A program made the translations under genes and the position numbers. From an uncultured Oscillospiraceae bacterium (lineage in GTDB: Bacteria; Bacillota; Clostridia; Oscillospirales; Oscillospiraceae), in assembly GCA_947588605.1 (NCBI GenBank), contig CANPYK010000021.1, positions 1-37,515 on the forward strand: DNA of 37,515 nt, written 5' to 3'. How positions within the stretch are numbered: position 1 is the first letter of the stretch; every line of letters begins with the position of its first letter. Below, in pieces: positions 3,956 to 30,767 of the stretch. The notes below the pieces were generated by a model, which searched no databases, was not told the origin of the DNA, and was given only the letters and a program-made list of their open reading frames with translations.

Positions 3956-4179
3956 GGGCTCCCTTTCGTAAAGGGAGCTGTCGCGAAGCGACTGAGGGAT
4001 CGAAGGTTGGACGATAGAGCCCTATCGACCAACGCTCGCTACCCCCCTGCCCCCCTCCTACGAGGAGGGGGGCGAAAAAGGTTGCGGCTTCGCCGCGGTT
4101 TTTATTATCCGCCGCGGCGGGGACGGGGGACGAGGGACGGGCGGACACATGGGTCCGCCCCTACATTTTGAATTGCGTT

Positions 4180-4412
4180 TAATCACCGCCATACGGGTCG
4201 CCGCCCACGGCGACCCGCGTTGCAGGGTCCGGATTGCCCCCGATAAACGCCGTAGGGGCCGCCGTCCTCGGCGACCCGCGTTTCGATAATTTCCTATGTT
4301 ATTTATATGGGATAACCTTCCATATTTTCTGTAGGGGCGGGTTCCAAACCCGCCCGGGCCACGTTGCGTGACGGAAACGGTTCCGATAAAACGGAAATTG
4401 GTGGTCAACCGG
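4180..4412. repeat. Composite interspersed repeat, copy 1
   Basis: About 235 bp that aligns over its whole length with 15838-16075 and, with one sub-module missing, with 20153-20320. Shared landmarks in order are two GCCG(C/T)CC..GGCG palindromic sub-modules, GATTGCCCCCGATAAACGC between them, CGTTTCGAT, ATAACCTTCCA, the GGGCGGGTTCCAAACCCGCCC palindrome and CCACGTTGCGTGACGG. Confidence 0.75.
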
Positions 4413-4958
4413 GGAAGGGCCGCTGTGGGCAGCGGCCCGTACGGCGGTGTTCGGAACGGGTCAATAGACGAAGGGCGGGTCGCCGGGGACGGCGACCCCT
4501 ACGGCGGTGTTTATAACCTCTGCGGGTCATCGAGGCCGGTCTGTCATCCCACGCTCGCTGCCCCCCTGCCCCCCTCCTACGAGGAGGGGGCTTTAAAAGG
4601 ATGCGCCGCTTTGCGGCGCAATTTTAATATAAACGCGGCGCAAAGCGCCGCAACCTTATTCCCCCGACCCCTTTTTCGGAAAAAGGGGTGCCGCCGCGGC
4701 GGCGGGGTATTCGAGCCCTCGTCCTTCGTCTTAGCCTTCCCCACAAAGTGGGGAAGGTGGCGCCCGCAGGCGCCGGATGAGGTGCGTGCGTTCATCGCAG
4801 CCGCCCAAAACCCTTCGGCTCCCACCTCACCCCTCCCCCTCCCCGCCCTGCGGGGAGGGCTCTAAACCGGGGGCGGGTGCGATTATTTGCGCGGTTGGAT
4901 AGACGGAACCACCCCGGCGCCTCGCGCCACCCCGACCTAGGAGGGGCAAAATCTCTCT

Positions 4959-9424: not shown

Positions 9425-9835
9425 ATGGACTATTTTACAGCCGAACTGACGGATACCCAGCTCCAAAATCTCTCTTCCCTGGCCCTGGCGCATTTGGGGG
9501 ACGCGGTCTATGAGCTGATGGCGCGGACCTTCCTCGTCTCCCGGGGCCGGGAGACGAACCACGGCCTCCACCGGGCCACCGTGGCGCTGGTGCAGGCCCC
9601 GGCCCAGGCCGCGGCGGCGGCGAAGCTCCTGCCGCGCTTTACCGAGGAGGAGGCGGCGGTCTACAAGCGGGGCCGCAACGCCAAGACCCACGCCATCCCC
9701 CACGGGGCCACCATACAGGAATACCACGCCGCCACGGCGCTGGAGGCGGTGTTCGGGTATCTCTACTTAAAAGGGCGGCGGGAGCGGTTGAATGAGCTCT
9801 TTGCCGCGATCATGGAGGACGGCCATGGGATTTGA
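9425..9835 (+). CDS. mrnC: Mini-ribonuclease III
   Basis: A 136-residue RNase III-like dimeric nuclease without the double-stranded RNA-binding domain. In Bacillus it matures 23S rRNA. The catalytic helix LALAHLGDAVYE carries the metal-binding aspartate (D26), and YKRGRNAKTHA matches the second conserved block. ATG 9425 (MDYFTAELTD) is preferred over an in-frame ATG at 9296, because GAGG lies about 10 nt upstream and the length then matches the family. Its last 11 nt overlap rqcH, so the two are translated together. In Bacillus mrnC lies beside cysS, rlmB and yacP (rae1). Here the yacP-type domain is found fused to the GTPase at 17404-19965 instead. Confidence 0.93.
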   Translation: MDYFTAELTDTQLQNLSSLALAHLGDAVYELMARTFLVSRGRETNHGLHRATVALVQAPAQAAAAAKLLPRFTEEEAAVYKRGRNAKTHAIPHGATIQEYHAATALEAVFGYLYLKGRRERLNELFAAIMEDGHGI

Positions 9836-11585
9836 CGCGTTATTTTTAAAGGGCCTCGCCCGGGAGCTTTCCCGGGAGCTCACCGGGGCGAAGATCGAGA
9901 AGATCCAACAGCCCGCCCGGGGGGCGGTGGTCCTCACCGTCAAGGGGGAGCGCCGCCGGGACCTGATGATCGGCGGGGCCGCCGGCGCGCCGCGGGTCTA
10001 CTTCACCGAGGCCGCCATCGACAAGCCCCAGGAGCCGCCCATGTTCTGTATGCTCCTGCGTAAGCACCTCATCGGCGCGCGCGTTCTTGAGGTGGCCCAG
10101 CCGGCCACCGACCGGGTGCTCACCCTGCGTCTCGCCGCCCCCGGCCTCTTTGGGGAGGGGGAGGAGCGGGGACTCATTTTGGAGCTCATGGGCCGCGCCG
10201 CCAACGTCATCCTCACGGACGGGGAGGGCGTCATCACCGACTGCCTCTACCGGGTGGGCTCGGCGGAGGAGAAGCGGGCGGTCCTGCCGGGGATGCGCTA
10301 CCGCCTTCCGCCCATGCAGGAGAAGGCGGACCTCCTGACCATGCCCGACGACGCCGTGGCCGCCGCCGTGGCGGGCTTCGAGGCCGACCGGGAGGCCGAC
10401 CGGTGCGTGGTGGGATCGTTCCTCGGCTTCTCGCCCCTGACGGCCCGGGAGCTTTGCCACCGCGCCTACGGCGACACCTCCCCCCGGGTCTTTGAGATCC
10501 GGCAGAGGGACGGCGGCGCGGCGCTGACGCGGGAGCTCCTGGCGGCGCGGGACCGGGTGAACGCCGGGGAGACTGTCCCCTCCATGGTCGCCGGCCCGGA
10601 CGGGGAGCCGCTGGACTACAGCTGGCTGGCCCTCACCCAGTACGGGGCGGGGTACGCTTGCGCGGAGTTTGAGAGCTTTTCGGCGCTGTTGGACGCCTTT
10701 TACGCCCGGAAGGACGCCCAGGACCGCCGCCGCCAGCGGGCGCGGGAGCTTTTGAGGACCGTGAAAAACGCCCGGGACCGCTTGGCGCGCAAGCTGGAGG
10801 CCCAGCGCCGGGAGCTTGCGGATACGGAAAAGCGCGACTGGTACCGGGAGTGCGGCGACCTCATCACCGCCAATCTTTACGCCATGCGCAAGGGCCAGAC
10901 GGAGCTGGCGGCGGAGGACTTCTACGCCCCGGAGGGCGGCATCCGCCGCGTCGCCCTGGACCCTTTGAAGACGCCCCAGCAGAACGCCGCCAAATATTAT
11001 AAGGACTACGCCCGCGCCAAGAGCGCCCGGGCGCACCTGACGGAGCAGATCGCCGCCGGGGAGGGGGAGCTTGCGTACCTCGAGAGCGTCCTGGAGGAGC
11101 TGGACCGGGCGGAGACGGAGCGGGACCTTGCGGACATCCGCCAGGAGCTGACGGAGGGCGGCTATCTGCGCGCCCCCATTAAGCGGGGCCAGCCCAAACG
11201 CCAGCCCAGCCAGCCCATGCGCTTTCGCTCCACCGCCGGCCTTCTCATCCGGGTGGGCCGCAACAACGCCCAGAACGACGCCCTGTCCCTCCGGGACAGC
11301 GCCAAGACGGACCTGTGGCTCCACGCCAGCAAGCTCCACGGCGCCCACGTGGTCGTCTCCTGCGAGGGCAAGGCCCCGGACGACCAGACCGTCGCCGAAG
11401 CCGCCTCCCTCGCCGCCCTCTACTCCGAGGGCCGGACCGCCGCGAAGGTGCCGGTGGACTTAACGGAAGTCAGGCAGCTCAAAAAGCCCGCCGGCGCCCG
11501 CCCCGGCATGGTCATCTACCACACCTACCGCACCCTCCTCGCCGCCCCGGACGAAGCCCTGGCGGAAAGGCTGAGACAAAAATAG
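9825..11585 (+). CDS. rqcH: Ribosome quality control factor RqcH (NFACT/FbpA family)
   Basis: A 586-residue homologue of Bacillus RqcH, eukaryotic Rqc2/NEMF. It binds obstructed 50S subunits and drives alanine tailing of stalled chains. The order is NFACT-N (with LLRKHLIGARV and the functional D96-R97 pair in ATDRVLT, equivalent to B. subtilis D97-R98), a helix-hairpin region, a long coiled coil (about 280-430) and the C-terminal NFACT-R domain (SAKTDLWLHASKLHGAHVV). The start at 9825 lies inside the end of mrnC, with GGAGG upstream. Older annotation as a fibronectin-binding protein reflects some surface homologues; there is no signal peptide here. Confidence 0.94.
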   Translation: MGFDALFLKGLARELSRELTGAKIEKIQQPARGAVVLTVKGERRRDLMIGGAAGAPRVYFTEAAIDKPQEPPMFCMLLRKHLIGARVLEVAQPATDRVLTLRLAAPGLFGEGEERGLILELMGRAANVILTDGEGVITDCLYRVGSAEEKRAVLPGMRYRLPPMQEKADLLTMPDDAVAAAVAGFEADREADRCVVGSFLGFSPLTARELCHRAYGDTSPRVFEIRQRDGGAALTRELLAARDRVNAGETVPSMVAGPDGEPLDYSWLALTQYGAGYACAEFESFSALLDAFYARKDAQDRRRQRARELLRTVKNARDRLARKLEAQRRELADTEKRDWYRECGDLITANLYAMRKGQTELAAEDFYAPEGGIRRVALDPLKTPQQNAAKYYKDYARAKSARAHLTEQIAAGEGELAYLESVLEELDRAETERDLADIRQELTEGGYLRAPIKRGQPKRQPSQPMRFRSTAGLLIRVGRNNAQNDALSLRDSAKTDLWLHASKLHGAHVVVSCEGKAPDDQTVAEAASLAALYSEGRTAAKVPVDLTEVRQLKKPAGARPGMVIYHTYRTLLAAPDEALAERLRQK

Positions 11586-13542: not shown

Positions 13543-14100
13543 ATGGAGGATACCGAGATCGTGGGGCTTTACTGGGCGCGCGACCAGAGGGCTGTCCACG
13601 AGACGGCGGAAAAGTATGGGCGGCATCTGAAGCGGCTGTCCGTCAACATTGTGGGCGACGAACGGGACGCGGAGGAGTGCGTCAACGACGCCTACATGGC
13701 CGCCTGGAGCTCCATGCCGGAGCACCGCCCTTCCATGCTGGGGGCGTATCTTGCCAAGCTTACCCGGAGGCTGAGCCTCACCCGTTTGCGCTCGCGCCTC
13801 GCCCAAAAGCGGGGCGGCGGGGAGGCGGAGGCCGCCGTCGAGGAGCTTGCGGAGATCCTGCCCGCCGGGGAGGACACGGAAAAGGCGGTGGAGACGGCGG
13901 AGCTAGCCCGGGCGCTGGACAGGTTCCTGGACGGGCTGCCGGCGCGGGAGCGGGACCTGTTCCTCCGGCGGTACTTCGGCTTTCAGGACATGGCCCGCCT
14001 TGCCCAGGACGCCGGGATCAGCGTAGGCGCCGTCAAGCAGTCCCTCCACCGGACCAGAGTGAAGCTGCGGGCCTTTTTGGAAAAGGAGGATTGGTTATGA
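13543..14100 (+). CDS. Sigma-70 family (ECF-like) sigma factor
   Basis: A 185-residue sigma factor. Region 2 is NIVGDERDAEECVNDAYMAAW followed by YLAKLTRRLSLTRLRS. Region 4 is LPARERDLFLRRYF with helix-turn-helix SVGAVKQSLHRTRVKLR. A hydrophilic linker of about 55 residues joins them. GAGGAGG lies 8 nt before ATG 13543. The stop overlaps the start of the serpin gene (ATGA), so the two are coupled. A GTAACC at 13494-13499 resembles an ECF -35, but no clear CGTC follows. This sigma subfamily is common in Oscillospiraceae beside single-pass membrane proteins; the regulon is unknown. Confidence 0.9.
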   Translation: MEDTEIVGLYWARDQRAVHETAEKYGRHLKRLSVNIVGDERDAEECVNDAYMAAWSSMPEHRPSMLGAYLAKLTRRLSLTRLRSRLAQKRGGGEAEAAVEELAEILPAGEDTEKAVETAELARALDRFLDGLPARERDLFLRRYFGFQDMARLAQDAGISVGAVKQSLHRTRVKLRAFLEKEDWL

Positions 14101-15557
14101 AGAAAAACGATTTAGTAGACGCCCTCGGCCAGATCGACGAGCGGCACATAGAGGCGGCGGGGGAGCCGGTGCCCCAAAAAAGCAAAACCGGCTCATTGAA
14201 GCGCCGCTGGACGGCGCTGGCCGTGGCGGCGGCCCTGCTTTTGGCCGTGGGCGTAGGGGGCTTCACCGCGTGGCGGCAACATCAAAGCGGCCTCGCCCCG
14301 GACGACGCCCTGCGCATCCCCGCCGGGGTGGAGCGGCTGGCCGTGCCCGTCTACCCGAAGCGTGTGGCGTACACAAGGTCCACCGTGGACGAGTGGCGGG
14401 AGCAGAAAAACGCTCTTCGCCTGACCTCGGAGGAGCGGGACGCCTTTCAGCACTACCTGGACGCCGCCGTGCCGGCGTTTTTGGGGGGAGCGGCGGGGGA
14501 AAACGCCGTCTGCTCGCCCATGGACATCTATATCGGCCTTGCCATGCTCACCGAGACCGCCGGCGGCGGGACCAGGGACCAGCTGCTGGCGCTTCTGGGC
14601 CGGGACAGCGTGGAGGACCTGCGCGCCGCCGCCAACCGGGCCTTCAACGCCCTCTACGTCAACGACGGCGTGACCTATCTGGAGCTCTCCTCCTCCCTGT
14701 GGCTCCGGGACGGCATGAGCTGCGATAAGGGCGTTTTGAAGGCCCTGGCGGACAGCTACTACGCCTCCGCCTTCTCAGGGCCCATGGGCTCAGAGACCTA
14801 CAACGGCCTTCTCCGGGACTGGCTGAACGGCCACACCGGGGGGCTTTTGGAGGACAGCGTGGGCGGCGTGGAGCTCGGCCCCGACACCGCCATGGCGCTG
14901 GTGTCCGCCGTCTCCTACAAGGATAAGTGGTACTTTGACGAAGCCCTCACGGCACCCGGCGATTTCCACGCCCCCAAGGAGGACGTCACCGTGGACTACA
15001 TGCACCAGACCATGTCGGAGGGCGACTACCACTGGGGCGACAGGTATGCCGCCGTCACCAAGAGCATGGAGAACAGCACCATGGTCCTGCTCCTCCCCGA
15101 CGAGGGCGTGACGCCGGAGGAGCTCCTCTCCGACCCACAGGCCCTGGCGCTCCTGAACGGCCGCTTCGACAACGAGCGCCGGGGCACCTATAAGGTGGAG
15201 CTGACCCTGCCCCGGTTCGACGTCTCGGACGACGGCCTCCTCAACGACGCCCTCAAGGCTCTCGGCGTCACGGACGCCTTTGATGTGAACGCCGCCGACT
15301 TCTCCCCCCTGACCGCCGTCCGCTCCGACGGGACCCCCGCCGAGCTCTATCTGAGCCGCGCCCTCCACGGGGCGAGAGTCAAGGTCAACGAGGAGGGCTG
15401 TGAGGGCGCGGCCTACGCGGTGTTCGAGATGCTCGACGGCGCCGCCCCTCCCCCCGCCGAGACGGAAAAGATCGCCCTCACCTTCGACCGCCCCTTCCTC
15501 TTCTCCGTCCTCCAAAACGGCCTGCCGGTCTTCACCGGCATCGTCAACGAGCCGTGA
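14097..15557 (+). CDS. Membrane-anchored serpin, putative sigma partner
   Basis: A 486-residue protein with three parts: a short cytoplasmic head (1-37, MKKNDLVDALGQIDERHIEA) of the kind found in sigma-linked membrane proteins, one transmembrane helix (38-58) and an extracellular serpin domain (about 95-486). Serpin landmarks include AVCSPMDIYIGLAMLTETAGG, FNALYVNDGV and FDRPFLFSVLQNGLPVFTGIV. The hinge is VNEEGCEGAAYAVFEM (430-445). It keeps the EEG and small residues of inhibitory serpins, but has Cys at the P14 place and Tyr near P9. Inhibition of a protease, cleavage-based sensing and anti-sigma action are all possible; the last is inferred from the 4-nt overlap with the sigma gene. Confidence 0.85.
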   Translation: MKKNDLVDALGQIDERHIEAAGEPVPQKSKTGSLKRRWTALAVAAALLLAVGVGGFTAWRQHQSGLAPDDALRIPAGVERLAVPVYPKRVAYTRSTVDEWREQKNALRLTSEERDAFQHYLDAAVPAFLGGAAGENAVCSPMDIYIGLAMLTETAGGGTRDQLLALLGRDSVEDLRAAANRAFNALYVNDGVTYLELSSSLWLRDGMSCDKGVLKALADSYYASAFSGPMGSETYNGLLRDWLNGHTGGLLEDSVGGVELGPDTAMALVSAVSYKDKWYFDEALTAPGDFHAPKEDVTVDYMHQTMSEGDYHWGDRYAAVTKSMENSTMVLLLPDEGVTPEELLSDPQALALLNGRFDNERRGTYKVELTLPRFDVSDDGLLNDALKALGVTDAFDVNAADFSPLTAVRSDGTPAELYLSRALHGARVKVNEEGCEGAAYAVFEMLDGAAPPPAETEKIALTFDRPFLFSVLQNGLPVFTGIVNEP

Positions 15558-16200
15558 GGATTCCCCCGCCTTAGCCTTCCCCGCAGGGCGGGGAAGGTGG
15601 CGCCCGCAGGCACCGGATGAGGTGGGTGCGTTCATCGCCACCCGCCCAAAGCCCTTCGGCTCCCACCTCACCCCTGCCCCTCCCCGCCCTGCGGGGAGGG
15701 CTTTTTAAAAGGTTGCGGCTTCGCCGCAGTTTGATTTACCCGCCGCGGCGGGGACGACCCTTCCGCCTCGCTGCGCTCGGCACCTCCCCTGAAGGGGAGG
15801 CTAAAGGGCGGGTTTGGAACCCGCCCCTACGTTTCTAAATCGCCTTCAAATCATGCCGTACGGGCCGCCGCCCACGGCGGCCCAGGTTGCAGGTTTCGGA
15901 TTGCCCCCGATAAACGCTGTAGGGGCCGCCTCTCTTGGTGGCCCGTGTTTCGATGACCTCTGGTGTCGGTCAAATGGGATAACCTTCCAAATTCCGTGTA
16001 GGGGCGGGTTCCAAACCCGCCCGTGCCACGTTGCGCGACGGAACGGTTCCGATAAAACGGAAAATGTCGCTCATCAGGGGCAAGGGCCGCCGTGGGCGGC
16101 GGCCCGTACGGCGGTGTTCGGGGCGGGTCAATGGTCGGAAGACGGGTCGCCGAGGACGGCGACCCCTACTCACCCCCCGCGTTCCCCTTCCCCGACAGGC
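15558..16200. repeat. Repeat mosaic between serpin and TM2 genes
   Basis: Convergent spacer with no credible gene. It holds the AAGGTGGCGCCCGCAGGCACC unit and its CCCTGCGGGG partner (15572-15703), GCGGCTTCGCCGC (about 15715-15728), GGGCGGGTTTGGAACCCGCCC (15806-15830), composite repeat copy 2 (15838-16075) and inverted GGCCGCCG/GTCGCCGAGG units (16079-16170). Confidence 0.8.
15838..16075. repeat. Composite interspersed repeat, copy 2
   Basis: Aligns along its length with 4180-4412, including both palindromic sub-modules, GATTGCCCCCGATAAACGC, GATAACCTTCCA, the central GGGCGGGTTCCAAACCCGCCC palindrome and GGTTCCGATAAAACGGAAA. Confidence 0.75.
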
Positions 16201-16254: not shown

Positions 16255-16677
16255 TTAGTCCTTCAGGGGGTTGCCCTTGCCGTCCTTGTTGATGGAGCCG
16301 GTGAGGATCATGATGCCCTCCACGAGGCCCCAGATCTCGCTGGCGACGGCCAGGAAGCCGCAGCTCAGAAGGGAGATGAGCAGCTGCGCCACGGCCTTGC
16401 CGGTGTAGCCCAGGTAAAAGTTGTGGACGCCCAGGGAGCCCAGGAAGATGCCCAGAAGGCCGGCGGCCATCTTGGACTTCTGCGGGACCAGACCGGTGGG
16501 GGCGTTGTTGGTGGGGGCGGTCAGGGACACGCCGCAGTTGACGCAGACCACCGCGCCGGGGACGGTGTTGGTGCCGCAGTTGGGGCAGAAGTTGGTGCCG
16601 GAGCCCCTGGGCACGCCGCACTTGACGCAGACGACGGCGTTGTTGTCCATGACGTTTCCGCAGTTCCTACAATACAT
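16255..16677 (-). CDS. Double zinc-ribbon TM2 domain protein
   Basis: A 140-residue membrane protein. Two tandem zinc ribbons lie at the N-terminus: CRNCG...CVKCG (residues about 3-21) and CPNCG...CVNCG (31-49). The TM2 domain follows, two helices joined by a short turn, with the signature LGSLGVHNFYLGYTGKAVAQ. GGAGG lies before ATG 16675-16677. It starts 30 nt after the DUF2752 gene and probably shares its promoter. TM2 and DUF2752 proteins often occur together in clostridia; their role is not established. Confidence 0.88.
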   Translation of the reverse strand: MYCRNCGNVMDNNAVVCVKCGVPRGSGTNFCPNCGTNTVPGAVVCVNCGVSLTAPTNNAPTGLVPQKSKMAAGLLGIFLGSLGVHNFYLGYTGKAVAQLLISLLSCGFLAVASEIWGLVEGIMILTGSINKDGKGNPLKD

Positions 16678-16707
16678 TTTCTTTTCCTCCTCAAAAATGT
16701 AGAATTT

Positions 16708-17062
16708 TCAGCCGGGGATAAAAAATCTCAAGAGCGCGGCCGCATAGGAGACGGCCACGCAGCTCAACAAGAGGGTGACGAGCGCCGTGTTCGCCCGGAC
16801 CGAACGGACGAGCCGCCCGTCCTTCAAAAGCAGCAGGAAGAAGAAGGGCACGGTCCAAAAGGCGCTGTTGTAGGAAAACGCCGCCCGAAGGTCCAGTCGC
16901 AAAAGGCTCAGATACGCCCTGGTCATGCCGCACCCCGGACAGGGAAAGCCAAGGTACGTCAGGATAGGGCAGGGGACCCCCAGAAGGTAGACCGCCAGCA
17001 GAACCCCGCCGCACAGGAAAAGAAACGCCAGCTTCAGGAAAAAAACGGTTTTTTTTGGACAT
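16708..17062 (-). CDS. DUF2752 membrane protein, start interrupted by homopolymer frameshift
   Basis: A small membrane protein of about 118 residues with the DUF2752 signature GFPCPGCGMTRAYLSLLR between hydrophobic helices. The matching frame is open upstream to 17145 but has no usable ATG there, and the promoter (17105-17133) lies inside that extension. The ATG at 17060-17062 is in another frame: ATGTCC, A8, CCG, T7, then the protein. Shortening either run by one base gives a natural N-terminus (MSKKTVFFLKL or MSKKNRFFLKL). This could be phase variation, programmed slippage, a real lesion or a sequencing error. A TTG at 17095-17097 in frame would be almost leaderless. Confidence 0.7.
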
Positions 17063-17104
17063 GGCAGACCGCACCGCGCCGTTAAGTTTATGAACAATGT
17101 GTGA

Positions 17105-17133
17105 ATTATAGCAGACCGTGTGACAAAATGCAA
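17105..17133 (-). promoter_or_regulatory. Promoter of DUF2752-TM2
   Basis: TTGCAT (17128-17133), a 17-bp spacer and consensus TATAAT (17105-17110) on the minus strand. The predicted start is near 17098. Confidence 0.7.
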
Positions 17134-17152
17134 CTTTTTTTTCAAAAGTTTT

Positions 17153-17256
17153 CAAAAAAGGGGCGGGCCTTTCGGCCCGCCAAGAAATAGGGTTGTGGGA
17201 TAAAGATATGAGCTTACGGTCTTCGATGGGAAAATTTCGAGGATCGGATAAGCTGT
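17153..17256 (-). ncRNA. Candidate small RNA of about 104 nt
   Basis: A complete small transcription unit with no good reading frame. It has a promoter TTTACA-17-TACTAT (17263-17291), about 75 nt of unique sequence, then a perfect 8-bp GGCGGGCC-GAAA-GGCCCGCC hairpin (17162-17181) followed by CCTTTTTT. The body carries AGCTTA/TAAGCT pairing (17211-17216 with 17247-17252) around a weaker inner stem. That inner stem pairs better on the plus strand, where two G-U pairs replace A-C mismatches, so the strand is uncertain. A 40-codon frame exists, but its ATG lies inside the promoter. I recognise no RNA family. Confidence 0.4.
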
Positions 17257-17262
17257 AGCTTT

Positions 17263-17291
17263 ATAGTAGCGCATCTGGGACAAAATGTAAA
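17263..17291 (-). promoter_or_regulatory. Promoter of the candidate small RNA
   Basis: TTTACA (17286-17291), a 17-bp spacer and TACTAT (17263-17268) on the minus strand. Confidence 0.5.
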
Positions 17292-17340
17292 TAGGAAGTT
17301 TTGTCGAATCGGCGCTTTTTTCAAGCCCCGGCGGGAGCGC

Positions 17341-17369
17341 TTGCAACGGGCGGCGGGGGGTGATATAAT
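17341..17369 (+). promoter_or_regulatory. Promoter of the GTPase-NYN gene
   Basis: TTGCAA (17341-17346), a 17-bp spacer and consensus TATAAT (17364-17369). Its -10 contains the apparent ATG at 17368, which therefore cannot be the translation start. Confidence 0.75.
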
Positions 17370-17403
17370 GGGTCCATTCAACTTTGACCGGGGAGGCGGG
17401 GAC

Positions 17404-19965
17404 TTGGCGGGGACATTCTGTATGGGCCTTCTGGCCCACGTGGACGCGGGGAAGACCACGCTGTCCGAGGGGCTTCTTTATTGCGCCGGGGACATCCGCA
17501 GGCTCGGGCGGGTGGACCACGCCGACGCCTTTCTCGATAACTTCGCCCTGGAGCGGGAGCGGGGCATCACCATCTTCTCCAAGGAGGCGCGCCTGACCAT
17601 CGGGGAGCGCACCGCCACGCTTCTCGATACGCCGGGGCATGTGGACTTCTCCGCCGAGACGGAGCGGACGCTGGACGTGCTGGACTGCGCCGTTCTGGTG
17701 ATCTCCGCGCCGGAGGGCGTCCAGAGCCACACCCGCACGCTGTGGGGGCTTCTGCGGCGGCGGGACATCCCGACCCTGGTGTTTGTCAACAAGATGGACC
17801 TGCCCGGGGCGGACCGGGAGCGGGTGCTGGCGGAGCTTACGGACCAGCTGGGCGACGGCTTTTTTGAGCCGGACCGGCCGGACCCGGAGGCCCTGGCCCT
17901 GACGGACGAGGCGCTTTTGGAGGAGCACCTGGAGAAGGGGACCCTCTCCGACGCCTCCCTCAACGCCGCCTTCGCCCGGGGGCACGTCTACCCCTGCTAC
18001 TTCGGCGCGGCGCTGAAGCTCCAGGGCGTGGAGGAGCTGCTGGCGGGTCTTGCGCGCTTCGCCCCGGTCCGGGACTACGGGGACAAATTCGGGGCCAGGG
18101 TCTTCAAAATTTCACGGGACGCCGAGGGCAAGAGGCTGACGCACCTGAAGGTCACCGGCGGGGTCCTGCGCGTCCGGGATACCCTCTCCGGCCAGGGCTG
18201 GGAGGAGAAGGTCACCCAGCTGCGGGTCTACTCCGGGGCCAAATACACCCCCGTGGACGAGGTCCGGGCCGGGGAGGTGGCGGCCGTCACCGGCCTTTCC
18301 GCCACTTACGCCGGGGAGGGACTGGGGGAGGAGCCGGACGGCCGCGCGCCGGTGCTGGAGCCGGTCCTCAATTACGAGGTCCTTTTGCCGGACCGGGCGG
18401 ACATCCACAGGGCCCTGGCCCAGCTTCACGAGCTGGAGGAGGAGGAACCGGAGCTCAGGCTCCTCTGGGACCGCCGTTCCGGGCGGCTCAACGCCCAGAT
18501 CATGGGCCGCGTCCAGCTGGAGGTCCTGAAGCGCCAGGTGAAGGACCGGTTCGACCTGGACATCGCCTTCGGCCCCGGCGCCATCATCTACCGGGAGACG
18601 GTGGCCAACCGCGTGGAGGGCGTGGGCCACTACGAGCCCCTGCGCCACTACGCCGAGGTCCACCTCATCATAGAGCCGGGGGAGCGGGGCAGCGGCGTGG
18701 AGATCGCCTCCGCCGTCCCGCCGGACACTTTAGCGGGGAGCTGGCAGCGGCTTATTTTGACGCATCTTCGGGAAAAACAGCACATCGGCGTCCTCACCGG
18801 CTCGCCGCTGACGGACGTGAAGATCACCTTAGCCTCCGGCAGGGCGCACCTGAAGCACACCGAGGGCGGGGACTTCCGGGAGGCCACCTACCGGGCGGTG
18901 CGTCAGGGGCTCATGGGGGCGCAATGCGTGCTCCTGGAGCCCTGGTACGACTTCCGGCTGGAGCTTCCGGCGGAGAACGTGGGCCGTGCCATGGCGGACC
19001 TCACCCTGGCCGGCGCGGCCTTCGAGCAGGGGGAGGGTCTGGCGGGCCTTGCCGTCCTCACCGGCTCGGGGCCTGTCAGCGCCCTCCGGGAGTACCCGGC
19101 GGAGGTGGCGGCCTACACCCGGGGACAGGGGCGGGTCAGTTTCGTCTTCCACGGCTACGAGCCCTGCCGGGACCAGGACGCGGTGGTGGAGGCCATCGGC
19201 TACGACCCGGACGCGGACATGGACAACCCCTCCTACAGCGTCTTCTGCGCCCACGGCGCCGGCGTCACCGTCCCCTGGGACGAGGTGCCCCGGCGGATGC
19301 ACTTGCCCAGCGCCCTGGCCCCGGCCCCCTCGCTGGGACCGCCCGCCGAGGTCCGGGAGGCCGCCGCCCGGTACGTGCGCCTGGTGGCCACGGACAAGGA
19401 GCTCATGGCCATCTTCGAGCGCACCTACGGCAAGGTGGAGCGGGGCGAGGAGGCTCTGCGCCCCGCGCCGAAGGAGCCCAAAAGCGCCCCCAAGGAGCCG
19501 AAGCGCCCCAAGCCGCCCCAGAAGGACGGCCTGGAATTCGTGCTGGTGGACGGCTACAACGTGATCTTCGCATGGCCCGACCTCAATCGCCTTGCCGCCC
19601 AGAGCCTGGACGCCGCCAGGGAGCGGCTCATCGAACGCCTGCGCAACTACCAGGGCTTTCGGCAGAACGCCGTTATCGTGGTCTTCGACGCCTACAAGGT
19701 GAAAAATAACCCCGGCAGCGTCCAGCACCTGGGCGGTGTCAGCGTGGTGTACACCAAAGAGGCGGAGACAGCGGATATGTACATCGAGCGCGCCGCCTAC
19801 GACCTCAGTAAGCGCCACAACGTCCGCGTGGCCACCTCCGACGGGGCGGAGCAGATGATCATCCTCGGCGCCGGCGCCCTCCGCGTCCCCGCCCTGTCCT
19901 TCGAGTCCGAGGTTTTGGAGGTGGAGCGGGCTATTGGGGAGTATTTAAAGGAGTATAACGGATAG
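17404..19965 (+). CDS. TetM/EF-G-like translational GTPase fused to Rae1/YacP-type NYN nuclease
   Basis: An 853-residue fusion. The N-terminal part is a translation-factor GTPase of the ribosomal-protection type: G1 AHVDAGKTT (11-19), switch I ERERGITI, DTPGHVD (75-81) with the catalytic-type histidine H79, and NKMD (129-132), then EF-G-like domains II-V. After a Pro/Lys-rich linker (about 685-712) comes an NYN nuclease matching Bacillus Rae1/YacP: VDGYN with D716, VVFDA with D762, TKEAETAD with D791 and ATSD with D813. I start at TTG 17404: GGGGAGG lies 7 nt upstream, the N-terminus then aligns with TetM, and the earlier ATG is inside the promoter. Inferred role: entering the A site and cutting mRNA there. 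Simple tetracycline resistance is less likely. Confidence 0.9.
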   Translation: MAGTFCMGLLAHVDAGKTTLSEGLLYCAGDIRRLGRVDHADAFLDNFALERERGITIFSKEARLTIGERTATLLDTPGHVDFSAETERTLDVLDCAVLVISAPEGVQSHTRTLWGLLRRRDIPTLVFVNKMDLPGADRERVLAELTDQLGDGFFEPDRPDPEALALTDEALLEEHLEKGTLSDASLNAAFARGHVYPCYFGAALKLQGVEELLAGLARFAPVRDYGDKFGARVFKISRDAEGKRLTHLKVTGGVLRVRDTLSGQGWEEKVTQLRVYSGAKYTPVDEVRAGEVAAVTGLSATYAGEGLGEEPDGRAPVLEPVLNYEVLLPDRADIHRALAQLHELEEEEPELRLLWDRRSGRLNAQIMGRVQLEVLKRQVKDRFDLDIAFGPGAIIYRETVANRVEGVGHYEPLRHYAEVHLIIEPGERGSGVEIASAVPPDTLAGSWQRLILTHLREKQHIGVLTGSPLTDVKITLASGRAHLKHTEGGDFREATYRAVRQGLMGAQCVLLEPWYDFRLELPAENVGRAMADLTLAGAAFEQGEGLAGLAVLTGSGPVSALREYPAEVAAYTRGQGRVSFVFHGYEPCRDQDAVVEAIGYDPDADMDNPSYSVFCAHGAGVTVPWDEVPRRMHLPSALAPAPSLGPPAEVREAAARYVRLVATDKELMAIFERTYGKVERGEEALRPAPKEPKSAPKEPKRPKPPQKDGLEFVLVDGYNVIFAWPDLNRLAAQSLDAARERLIERLRNYQGFRQNAVIVVFDAYKVKNNPGSVQHLGGVSVVYTKEAETADMYIERAAYDLSKRHNVRVATSDGAEQMIILGAGALRVPALSFESEVLEVERAIGEYLKEYNG

Positions 19966-20064
19966 AGACGTGGGGGTGGGGTGCGGGTCATCGGAACCGC
20001 CCTCATGTCCCACGCTCGCTACCCCCCTGCCCCCCTCCTACGAGGAGGGGGCTTTAAAAAGGTT

Positions 20065-20088
20065 TGCGGCTTCGCCGCAGTTTTAATT
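20065..20088 (+). terminator. Terminator-like palindrome after GTPase-NYN
   Basis: TGCGGC-TTC-GCCGCA stem followed by GTTTTAATTT. It is one of the GCGGCTTCGCCGC modules and here is placed to end the fusion gene transcript. Confidence 0.5.
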
Positions 20089-20152
20089 TACCCGCGCGGC
20101 GGGGACGGGGGACGAAGGACGGGAGACGGGCGGGTTTGGAACCCGCCCCTAC

Positions 20153-20320
20153 ATTTTAAATTACGTTCAATCAACGCCGTAGGGGCCGCCGCCCACGGCG
20201 GCCCACGTTTCGATGACCTCCGGGGTCGGTTGAATGGAATAACCTTCCATATCCCCTGTAGGGGCGGGTTCCAAACCCGCCCGTGCCACGTTGCGTGACG
20301 GAACGCTTCCGAAAATACGC
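20153..20320. repeat. Composite interspersed repeat, copy 3 (one sub-module absent)
   Basis: Matches copies 1 and 2 but has a single GGGGCCGCCGCCCACGGCGGCCC sub-module-type palindrome where the others have two, as if about 70 bp were lost or never duplicated. The rest (CGTTTCGATGACCTC, ATAACCTTCCA, central palindrome, CCACGTTGCGTGACGG) is collinear. Confidence 0.7.
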
Positions 20321-20427
20321 ACCCGCCCCCGTCTTCGTGCCCCCCTCCTCGCAGGAGGGGGGCAGGGGGGCAGCGAGCGTCGGATGACAGAGCGGTTCCG
20401 ATAAATGGCGCCCGCCCCCCCCATTTT

Positions 20428-22140
20428 TCATTCCCCCGCCAGGGTCACCATGGCGTAGAGGGCGCCTTTTTTCCGCATGAGGTCCGCGTAGGGGCCCTGC
20501 TCGATGAGCTTGCCGGAGCGCAAGACGAATACGGCGTCGTATCGGCTCAGGAGGGACGGGTCCAGGCGGTGGGTGATCACCAGGCGCGTAAGGCCCCGCA
20601 GGTCCAAAATCGCCTCGGTCACCGCGCGGGCCGTCTCGTTATCGAGGGCGGAGGTGGCCTCGTCCAGAAGGAGCACCGGCGTGCCCCGCAAAAGGGCCCG
20701 GGCGATGCTGACCCGCTGGCGTTCCCCGCCGGCCAGACCCCGGCCGCCCTCGCCGCAGCGGTAGTCCCCGCCCTTTTCCCAGAGGACCGGGGCAAGGCCG
20801 GAGCGCTCCACGGCGGCGTCCACCGCCTCGTCCGGAAAGTCCCGGAACATGGTGATGTTCCGGCGCACCGTGTCGTCGAAGAGGAACACCGACTGGCCGA
20901 TGAGGCTCATGAGGTCGTAGAGGCTGTCGGGATCGATGTCCCGGAGCTCCCTCCCGTCCACGGTGAGGGACCCGGCGTAGTCCGTCGAGGCCCCCATCAG
21001 GAGGCTCAGGAGCGTGGACTTGCCCGACCCGGAGGCCCCCACCAGGGCGTAGCTGCGTCCGGCCTCCAGCTTCATGGAGAGGCCCTTCAGGACCGGCTTT
21101 CCCGGCTCGTAGCCGAAGGTGACGTTTTGAAGCTCGATGCCCTCCCGCAAAACGGGCTCCACAGCCTGCCCGGAGCGGGAGGCGTTTTCCGAGACGACGG
21201 CCCCCAGTTTTCCGATGAGCCCCCGGGCGGCCCTGAGCCCGGCCAACAGCTGGGGAATCTGCTGGACCGGCTGGATGAGGGAGTTGGAGAGGTTGGTGAA
21301 GATGAGCACCGTCCCCGCCGTGATGCTGCCACGCAGCGCCAGATAAGCGCCGATGAAGAATATGCCGAACTGCATGATGACGGAGAGGCTGCTGCCCGCC
21401 CCCTGCATGGCGCCCCGCCAGGTGAGCTTCCGGCTCCGGGCCCGCTCCAGGGCCTGGTTCTCCCCGTCGAAGATGCGCCCCGCCTCCCGCTCGGCCTTGA
21501 AGCTCTTGATGACGGCAAAGCCGGAGAGCAGGTCTCGAACCCGGCCCAAAAAGCCCTCACCGCAGTCGCTGAGGGCCTTTTCCCGGCGTGAAAGCTCCGG
21601 GCCGAAGACGGCCACCCCCAAAAAGGGCAGCACGCACAGCACCAGGGCGGCCCCCGTCAGGGCCGGACTGTACGTGAGCAGGAAGATGAGCGTGGCCGCG
21701 AAATTCAGGGGCTGCACAAGGAGAGAGAAAAGGGACTCCAGATAATCCGAGCCGATCACCGTCACATCGCCGGTGAGAACGGACAGATACCGCCCGGAGT
21801 TCTCCCGGGCGAAGGCGCTGATGCCCTTCTCCGAGAGCCGCCGGAAGGCGCAGGGCTTGTACTGTCCCAGCGCCCTGCGGGTAAAGGAGCCCAGGGCCCG
21901 GTAATAAAGGGTCTCCGCCAGGCCCAGGAACACCGCCACCCCCGCCGCGGCCCACGCAAGACGCGCAAGCCGGGCGGTGTCCAGCGCCGTAACGGCGTCC
22001 AGCACCTCCCCCAGCACCCACGACACAACGAGCATGGACGGGATCTCCAGGACATACAGCGCCGCCGTCCCCAGAAAGCGCAGGCGGTTGTGCTCAAACA
22101 TCGCCCGGATATAGGGCCGTGCGGGGTCAGGGCTTTTCAC
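20428..22140 (-). CDS. ABC exporter half-transporter
   Basis: A 570-residue half-ABC protein with a six-helix transmembrane domain (about 20-305) and an ATPase domain with complete motifs: Walker [10 protein letters not shown], signature [10 protein letters not shown], Walker [13 protein letters not shown] and switch VITHRLDP. Only one half is encoded, so it likely works as a homodimer. It starts with GTG 22138-22140, GGAGG 6 nt upstream, and overlaps the end of the XRE regulator gene by 14 nt. The substrate is unknown; regulator-exporter pairing suggests drug, peptide or lipid export. Confidence 0.9.
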
Positions 22141-24563: not shown

Positions 24564-25182
24564 AAAGGCACCGCCCCGACCTGGGAGGGGCAACCGTGTC
24601 GGGGGTAGTGCCATTTATCGTAACGGCTTTGTCCCCCAACGCTCGCTTCCCCTCTGCCCCCCTCCTACGAGGAGGGGGCTCCGAGACGGGGGGTGGTGCG
24701 TTTTATCGGAACCGTTCTATCATCCAACCGCGCACGGGCGGGTTTGGAACCCGCCCCTACCGCCTCCCTTAAGCCCCAGCGACGGGCAACGGGCTCGAAT
24801 ACCCCGCCGCTGCGGCGGCACCCCTTTTTCCGAAAAAGGGGTCGGGGGAATAAGGTTGCGGCGCTTCGCGCCGCGTTTATATTAATTGCGCCTCCGGCGC
24901 AATAAAATCGAGAATGCGGCGAAGCCGCTCCTTTTTGCCCCCTTTGGGGCAAAGGGGGCAGGGGGATTCGAGCTCCCGTCCCCCGTCCCTCGTCCCCGCC
25001 GCGCGGGCAAATCAAAACCGCGGCGAAGCCGCAACCTTTTTCGCCCCCCTCCTCGTAGGAGGGGGGCAGGGGGGCAGCGAGCGTGGGATGACAGAGCGGT
25101 TTCGATGAACGCACGCACCTCATCCGGCGCCTGCGGGCGCCACCTTCCCCGCCCTGCGGGGAAGGCTGAAGAGCATTTCCCC
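24564..25182. repeat. Repeat mosaic between pdaB-like and tex genes
   Basis: The only mosaic in a tandem (not convergent) spacer. It has a CCCCGACCTGGGAGGGG unit (about 24571-24591), CCTCCTACGAGGAGG units in both orientations (24633-24683 and 25041-25107), GGGCGGGTTTGGAACCCGCCC (24735-24760), CCCCTTTTTCCGAAAAAGGGG (about 24821-24842), GCGGCGCTTCGCGCCGC (about 24857-24873), CCCCTTTGGGGCAAAGGGG (about 24939-24958), GCGGCGAAGCCGC and a reversed GGCGCCTGCGGGCGCC unit (25104-25170). No gene is seen. Confidence 0.8.
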
Positions 25183-30210: not shown

Positions 30211-30767
30211 GGGGAGACGGGCGGGGGTGAGTTGACGGGAACGGTCCCGTCATCCCACGTTCGCTGCCCCCCTGCCCCCCTCCTACGAGGAGGGGGCGAA
30301 AAAGGTTGCGGCTTCGCCGCAGATTTGGATTTGCCCGTACGGCGGTGTTCGGGACGGGTCAATGGACGACGGGCGGGTCGCCGGGGACGGCGACCCCTAC
30401 GGCGGTGTTAATAACCTGCGGGTCATCGGGACCGCACTGTCGTCCAACCCTCGCTTCTCCCCTGCCCCCCTCCTACGAGGAGGGGGCGAAAAAGGTTGCG
30501 GCTTCGCCGCAGATTTGGATTTGCCCGCGCGGCGGGGACGGGGGACGGGGGCTCGGATCCCCCCTACCCCCTTTGCCCCAAAGGGGGTCAAAAAGGTTTG
30601 CGCCGCAACCTTATTCCCCTTTACCCCTTTTTCGGAAAAAGGGGTGCCGCCGCGGCGGCGGGGTATTCGAGCCCGTGGGGCGTAACTGGGGCTTTTTGTT
30701 ATCGGAATGTAGAACCACCCCGGCCTCGCTGCGATCGGCCACCCCGACCTAGGAGGGGCTTGATTGG
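30211..30767. repeat. Repeat mosaic between beta-galactosidase and anti-sigma genes
   Basis: Convergent spacer without a gene. It has CCTCCTACGAGGAGG units (30247-30300 and 30441-30490), each followed by GCGGCTTCGCCGC, inverted GTCGCCGGGGACGGCGAC units (30338-30420), CCCCCTTTGCCCCAAAGGGGG (about 30568-30588), CCCCTTTTTCGGAAAAAGGGG (about 30625-30645) and a CCCCGACCTAGGAGGGG unit (30714-30758). The two halves 30247-30340 and 30441-30535 are near duplicates. Confidence 0.8.

Follow-up and report, generated by a model that had tools for sequence, protein, structure and literature searches.

An EF-G-type translational GTPase joined to a Rae1-type NYN nuclease in Oscillospiraceae, a probable replacement of stand-alone Rae1

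Introduction

Why would a translational GTPase carry an mRNA nuclease at its C-terminus, and does the joined protein stand in for the nuclease that is elsewhere encoded alone? These questions are raised by a gene on the plus strand (17404-19965) of contig CANPYK010000021.1 of an uncultured Oscillospiraceae bacterium (assembly GCA_947588605.1), of which positions 1 to 37,515, all 37,515 nucleotides together called the window, were analysed. The single open frame runs through to the stop at 19965 and encodes, from a TTG codon, a protein of 853 amino acids consisting of a translational GTPase, a linker and a NYN domain of the Rae1/YacP type. In the accessible text of two papers, Bacillus subtilis Rae1 is described as an mRNA endonuclease acting in the ribosomal A site (PMC6613710; PMC12320835).

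The architecture is well conserved, has already been noticed in print and is common in this clostridial group. According to the accessible part of a phylogenetic report, Tet proteins of ten Clostridiales species gained a YacP-like NYN RNase domain, for which a role in resistance was suggested (Atkinson 2015; PMC4342817). The window protein shares with those fusions the domain order, so far as described there, and the bacterial group, and as an EF2-family GTPase with a YacP-like NYN domain from Clostridiales it is, by its architecture, one more of them. That report, in the part accessible, devotes a few sentences to ten species and takes the fusion for a Tet protein that may serve in resistance, whereas here the GTPase falls outside the Tet proteins and the fusion appears to be a replacement of Rae1. 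The paper on Rae1 itself reportedly dates from 2017, later than the 2015 report (a date taken from reference lists). Neither a further paper treating the fusion nor a test of its function was found in the searchable literature. The layout, for which an earlier, sequence-only reading of the window knew of no characterised protein, has itself been in print since 2015. Added here to the 2015 report are the probable replacement of Rae1, the placing of the GTPase outside the Tet proteins, its single clade and the changes in the C-terminal tail of the nuclease.

Domain architecture and conservation of the fusion

The union of a GTPase with a complete Rae1-type NYN domain in one protein, as the sequence-only reading had proposed, is borne out by the open frame, the Pfam domains and the motifs. 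With residue ranges counted from position 17341, Pfam assigns GTP_EFTU to 28-242 (162.8 bits), EF-G_D2 to 250-328 (29.5 bits, cut-off 27), EFG_III to 340-411 (24.4 bits, under its own cut-off of 27), EFG_IV to 414-527 (58 bits), EFG_C to 530-612 (51 bits) and NYN_YacP to 734-871 (158.3 bits, cut-off 24.6). Its G motifs and EF-G domains II-V place the N-terminal part in the EF-G/Tet superfamily of translational GTPases, EFG_III alone remaining under the Pfam cut-off. On the plus strand, the G domain, in which alignment with EF-G and Tet sequences finds the G' insert of EF-G almost absent, extends over 17422-18066, domains II and III over 18088-18573, domain IV over 18580-18921 and domain V over 18928-19176, followed by a C-terminal extension of the GTPase (19177-19305), a linker of 74 residues (19306-19527) and the NYN domain (19528-19962).

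A PDB search with the last 144 residues matched, up to an E value of 1, only B. subtilis YacP/Rae1 (5mq8 and 5mq9, the latter best; E 8e-27), with 46% identity over the solved part and the same NYN motifs, VDGYN, TKEAETAD and ATSD all being present. What distinguishes the fused domain from Rae1 is its position behind a GTPase and outside the rlmB-rae1-sigH locus. The four aspartates, numbered as all residues below from ATG 17368 (minus 12 for numbering from TTG 17404), are D728 of VDGYN (D716 from TTG; 19549-19551), D774 of an FDA motif (D762; 19687-19689), D803 of the TAD motif (D791; 19774-19776) and D825 of ATSD (D813; 19840-19842).

Conservation was assessed in an alignment of 134 rows, namely the window protein and 133 sequences with distinct C-termini out of 139 fusion open reading frames (ORFs), nine re-fetched loci having been set aside beforehand; 34-39 of the rows, whose loci are short, are without parts of the G domain. 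All four aspartates are kept in 134/134 fused sequences, as are N731, T796, I806 and E807, and in the numbering of the domain D8, D54, D83 and D105 are invariant in 41 NYN domains, fused and stand-alone. Each of 14 positions checked in G1-G4 is covered by 95-98 rows, of which 93-98 have the consensus residue. The G motifs thus hold, with exceptions such as T for N141 in 5/98 rows and G for A215 in 5/100. A loop of domain IV, GHxEPLRHYAEVHL (18625-18666), is nearly invariant: G420, H421, E423, P424, L425, H427, Y428 and E430 are each found in 133/134 rows, the remaining row being a gap. The linker is low in identity (mean 24% across fusions) and near-constant in length (69-77 residues in 19/21 fusions, 63 and 87 in the other two), and contains a conserved element, DKELMAIFERTYG (19393-19431), of the type DKELxxIFERTYG, with I682 in 130/134, E678 in 127/134 and T686 in 119/134 fusions, which by eye was not seen in the ends of unfused GTPases or in stand-alone NYN domains. 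The two modules are inherited as a unit, pairwise distances of GTPase and NYN domain agreeing across 21 fusions (Mantel r 0.71, 0/5000 permutations as high).

Identity of the GTPase

By its sequence the GTPase appears Tet-like in a broad sense only, having the EF-G fold without the marks of a tetracycline-protection factor. Although tet_protect is its best NCBIfam model by score, and TetO and TetM are its nearest solved relatives by profile (364-377 bits), the latter lie only slightly above EF-G (363 bits), and against the curated Tet model NF012153, with a cut-off of 775, the GTPase part reaches 397.8 bits as compared with 879.8 for a tet(M) control; two unfused relatives score 393 and 421 bits. 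In a tree of the GTPases, the 35 fused rows form one clade with an SH-aLRT of 100, to which seven unfused relatives are external, and fused and unfused GTPases together form a further clade (SH-aLRT 100) apart from six Tet-type and six EF-G rows. The Tet-type rows comprise two named tet genes (Tet(M) and TetB(P) sequences) and four that were labelled Tet by ourselves; Tet(O) is not in the trees. The same grouping came out of a second tree, in which unfused rows were more numerous; one of these (L259), read in a wrong frame and with a branch length of 10, is disregarded. The single clade of fused GTPases points to one origin of the fusion.

The loops of domain IV separate the three groups as well. 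Loop I reads HYEPLRHYAEV in the fusion GTPase, VPPNPFWAS in Tet(M) and GGRGQYGH in EF-G, and the tip loop (GRAHxKHTEGGDFRxATYRAVRQ; 18838-18906) is RAHLKHTEGGDFR in the fusion GTPase, LYYSPVSTPADFR in Tet(M) and SYHEVDSSEMAF in EF-G. Since the tip loop of the fusion aligns with that of EF-G, H494 with the histidine of GSYHEVDSS, the tip histidine of EF-G is counted as kept. Neither a tip loop of the Tet type SPVSTPADFR, in whose place KHTEGGDFR stands, nor a Tet C-terminal tail was found in the alignment of the fusion GTPase. The 43-residue extension with the pattern SVFCxHGAGxxVxWDxVxxxMH, absent from the aligned Tet and EF-G sequences, is the mark of this GTPase subfamily, whose unfused members end just after it.

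The fusion GTPase thus resembles EF-G in its domains I-V and the retained tip histidine, but differs in the almost missing G' insert, other domain IV loops and a separate clade. With Tet(M), Tet(O) and TetB(P) it has in common the EF-G fold and a G' region shorter than that of EF-G; it differs from Tet(M) and TetB(P) in its own clade, another domain IV tip and C-terminus, and a score below the curated Tet cut-off. Unfused clostridial proteins named translation factor GTPase (such as L195-L201, L257 and L258) belong to the same subfamily, with the same domain IV loops and C-terminal extension, but stop where the linker of the fusion starts and are without NYN domain. The earlier designation as TetM/EF-G-like is accordingly retained as to the EF-G type and narrowed, as to Tet, to a likeness in the broad sense, by the tree, the NF012153 score and the absent loop and tail. 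In NCBI records, one fusion, from Agathobacter, is named as a member of the TetM/TetW/TetO/TetS family and another as a translation factor GTPase family protein. As a separate observation, two cysteines in the C-terminal part of the GTPase, C600 and C627 (19165-19248, plus strand), are invariant in 21/21 and in 68/68 fusions and may be a metal or disulfide site.

Distribution of fused and separate modules

A scan of contigs with 21 aligned fusions yielded at least 588 encoding stretches, and both modules are present in all 80 ORFs of the best 80, which were selected by likeness to the fusion and hence do not represent unfused forms fairly. In the family of the host, the NYN_YacP family PF05991 is found in 202/300 genomes and the GTPase profile, at 1e-140, in 206/300; 200 genomes have both modules, the location in one frame having been seen for the matches listed, six have the GTPase alone, two the NYN domain only and 92 neither. 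Among the matches listed, 149 were tallied, of which 145 lie in frames of at least 700 amino acids, three in frames of 220-700 and one, at a contig start, in a frame below 220, none being a clear stand-alone NYN domain. Because 145 of these 149 sit in frames of fusion length, the joining of an EF-G-type GTPase to a complete Rae1-type NYN domain is real and not a chance event. Of the two NYN-only genomes, one (G026) carries the NYN domain at one contig edge and part of a GTPase at the edge of a second contig, whereas the other (G103; 370 contigs, 68% complete) is without GTPase match at 1e-60. The frames in the six GTPase-only genomes measure 636-665 amino acids in five and 801 in one.

With taxonomic distance the picture shifts. 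Across the class, PF05991 occurs in 192/293 genomes, and 150 matches among those listed divide into 85 of fusion length, 59 stand-alone and six between; across the phylum it occurs in 101/179 genomes, with 102 matches made up of 12 long frames (one sub-cut-off), 87 of stand-alone length and three between. The fusion is therefore the rule in the family of the host, but across the phylum at large only a minority of the matches are fused.

In the genome of the window itself, the only PF05991 match is the fusion. The sequence-only reading had asked for a separate yacP and for degenerate nuclease residues as signs against a working fused enzyme, and neither appeared, the genome having no second match and the aspartates being complete throughout the alignment. 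Class-wide, two PF05991 matches occur in 4/192 matching genomes, in three of which (G418, G472 and G506) the second is of about 21 bits and below the cut-off.

Two irregular forms of the gene were encountered. At L098 (3998-6712) and L194, in the single-contig genome G488, the fusion is split by a single in-frame TAG into frames of 285 and 540 amino acids, be it a pseudogene, recoding or an error, and at L249/L251 (G131) the NYN part lies in two overlapping frames, a frameshift in either the gene or the assembly.

Origin of the fusion and fate of the old rae1 locus

Stand-alone NYN genes stand in a characteristic context. At 18 of 19 such loci the gene is followed, after 17-199 bp and in the same orientation, by a sigma-factor gene that we take to be sigH, and within the stretch examined rlmB, its identity borne out by PF08032, occurs in 15 and a gene presumed from its sequence to be mrnC-like in 13, likewise on the same strand. 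The rlmB locus was examined in 18 genomes, of which 15 are fusion-only, two have stand-alone genes and one, G581, has both forms. The order rlmB-rae1-sigH is kept in the two stand-alone genomes and in G581. In six of the 15 fusion-only genomes rlmB still adjoins sigH at 0-240 bp, and in 0/6 of these is there a rae1 between them, so that the slot is emptied where it can be read; the other nine, including the genome of the window, have no sigH match within the 1.5 kb flank of rlmB and are uninformative on the slot. In the latter genome rlmB is on another contig than the fusion. The earlier remark that the rae1-type gene is not beside mrnC agrees with the lack of an RNase III family match among the 20 window ORFs scanned, no genome search having been aimed at mrnC.

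A tree of 21 fused and 19 clostridial stand-alone NYN domains with that of B. subtilis groups the fused domains together with one stand-alone domain, L091, at 100/100. A fused-only clade is not recovered, as L091 falls inside, though the AU test does not reject one (p 0.21). L091 (3983-4504, genome G507) lies away from rlmB and sigH, in a genome that encodes an unfused GTPase elsewhere, on a different contig. Because it adjoins genes that are presumably amidotransferase-like, and not rlmB or sigH, it looks like a later fission of the fusion. Overall, the fusion has probably replaced stand-alone Rae1 in this lineage.

Fused NYN domains tend to lose or change the basic C-terminal tail of Rae1. 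After ATSD, 63-68 residues follow in 29/29 clostridial stand-alone Rae1 proteins, with a median net charge of +5 in the distal part, as against 27-87 residues in the 134 fused domains (at most 45 in 45 of them, at least 60 in 60) and a median charge of +0.5; the window protein has 40 and is without the basic tail of the stand-alone form. A tail motif of the type KLEK-R, not universal in Rae1 either, is found in 14/29 stand-alone and 0/134 fused sequences. For B. subtilis Rae1, R166P is given in the accessible text among suppressors fitting a loss of Rae1 function (PMC6613710), and R166 would lie about 62 residues after ATSD as positioned through the PDB match. The changes fit a GTPase that takes over the targeting role of the tail; relaxed constraint would look identical.

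Proposed mechanism and alternative explanations

The reading we favour, at a probability of roughly one half, is that of a housekeeping-type, ribosome-associated mRNA endonuclease which replaced stand-alone Rae1 and in which A-site cleavage is coupled to the GTPase. Docking driven by GTP and then cleavage in the A site is, we infer, the likeliest course of events. The EF-G-fold GTPase would bind the factor site and the A site of a paused ribosome, GTP hydrolysis would let domain IV leave the A site, the tethered NYN domain could then enter and cut the mRNA, and transfer-messenger RNA (tmRNA), found in the genome of the window with 152 bits, may free the ribosome after the cut. Domain IV of EF-G and Tet proteins and, in the published model, Rae1 both occupy the A site. 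As both modules are expected to need this site, they would have to alternate. The sequence-only reading had proposed a self-contained factor that would use GTP to dock on stalled or drug-bound ribosomes and cut the mRNA, and a simple one-step picture of this kind is doubtful.

Several observations weigh against this reading. Both modules are missing from 92/300 genomes of the family, which makes the fusion dispensable. Unfused GTPases occur in genomes without NYN match (G476, G585 and G324, and the six of the host family), so that the GTPase is of use even where the nuclease is missing, and in hand-picked genomes the presence of the GTPase did not track that of the NYN domain (4/18 with a stand-alone NYN domain versus 3/27 with none, p 0.41), a co-occurrence of unfused GTPase and stand-alone nuclease thus being not significant. 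In G581, a fusion and a stand-alone rae1 truly coexist; together with the unfused GTPases lacking a nuclease partner, this is the main fact against strict coupling. The tail of Rae1, at which the B. subtilis mutation has its effect, is moreover often lost or altered in the fusions.

A tentative alternative, of lower though appreciable probability, is that one chain holds two independent activities, a GTPase with its own translation job and an ordinary Rae1, their joining fixing stoichiometry or nearness to ribosomes. That both modules occur alone elsewhere, that the linker is low in identity (24%) and that L091, stand-alone within the fused NYN clade, lies at an unrelated locus with an unfused GTPase on another contig of its genome would all be expected of such a protein. 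Independence accords less well with a linker held at 69-77 residues in 19/21 fusions and bearing a fusion-specific conserved element, with the absence of a clear stand-alone NYN domain among the 149 matches tallied of those listed for the family, and with the frequent loss or change of the Rae1 tail after fusion. A tetracycline ribosomal protection aided by the RNase, suggested in the accessible part of the earlier report (PMC4342817), is unlikely by score, tree and loop: the nearness of TetO and TetM by profile (364-377 bits, just above 363 for EF-G) and the NCBI family label on one fusion are outweighed by a score of 398 bits where the cut-off is 775 and a tet(M) control reaches 880, by the separate clade, and by the missing SPVSTPADFR-type loop and Tet-type tail. 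Nor does the setting suggest resistance: Rfam gave no leader match in the window, the 5' leader is predicted to be short, and two thirds of the sampled genomes of the family carry the fusion, several of them on a single multi-megabase contig (such as G078 and G160). Very improbable is an enzyme of rRNA or tRNA processing brought to ribosomes by the GTPase; such a function was proposed for the NYN domain before Rae1 was characterised, as quoted in the accessible text of PMC4342817, and would suit the rlmB and mrnC-like neighbours of stand-alone rae1, a neighbourhood that the fusion has left, while B. subtilis Rae1 is described, in the papers so far as accessible, as an A-site mRNA endonuclease.

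If the modules cooperate, the fusion would represent a compact one-protein route for locating stalled ribosomes and degrading the mRNA on them, as well as a common, unstudied part of clostridial translation quality control. It also gives access to the question of how Rae1 is directed to ribosomes, since proteins that gained a GTPase have often shed or altered the tail. The tetracycline-resistance label that NCBI gives to at least one fusion (Agathobacter) is unsupported here, and such labels could inflate counts of resistance genes.

Gene start and neighbourhood

TTG 17404, already picked in the sequence-only reading, is the best predicted start, because a same-genus homologue (L062) starts there (MPGTVIGILAHVD), a likely Shine-Dalgarno sequence, GGGGAGG (17390-17396, plus strand), lies 7 nt upstream, and the alternative ATG at 17368, further upstream, falls within a promoter-like site. 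This site (17341-17369, plus strand), TTGCAA and TATAAT spaced by 17 nt with TG before TATAAT, is a candidate by consensus match only (10/12 positions); in 17050-20450, on both strands, two promoter-like sites were found against 0.3 expected. A leader RNA was considered and rejected, a tRNA being the sole Rfam match in the window.

No conserved neighbour or operon partner emerged in up to 102 fusion loci and the window, the commonest cluster occurring at 11 loci with scattered distances. A defence system was rejected, with no PADLOC match, as was a mobile element, only 2/72,556 plasmid records having a match that spans 80% or more of the full protein, one of them Monoglobus plasmid 12 (518 kb). 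Through the NYN part, an Agathobacter plasmid record (252 kb) encoding a fusion was found, and 12/50,697 phage records matched, none of them annotated.

The window also encodes, some 6 kb ahead of the fusion gene, an NFACT/RqcH-type protein (9792-11585, plus strand; NFACT_N 385 bits), presumably a factor of the ribosome quality-control type. An ECF sigma factor gene and an overlapping serpin gene (175 bits) follow at 13543-15557 on the plus strand, and a zinc-ribbon TM2 protein and a DUF2752 protein are encoded in a row at 16255-17145 on the minus strand, divergent from the fusion gene. At several places, 3994-4813, 15562-16169, 19974-20419 (just after the fusion), 24601-25167 and 30219-30694, there are intergenic-looking repeats, both direct and inverted, in families of 50-211 nt.

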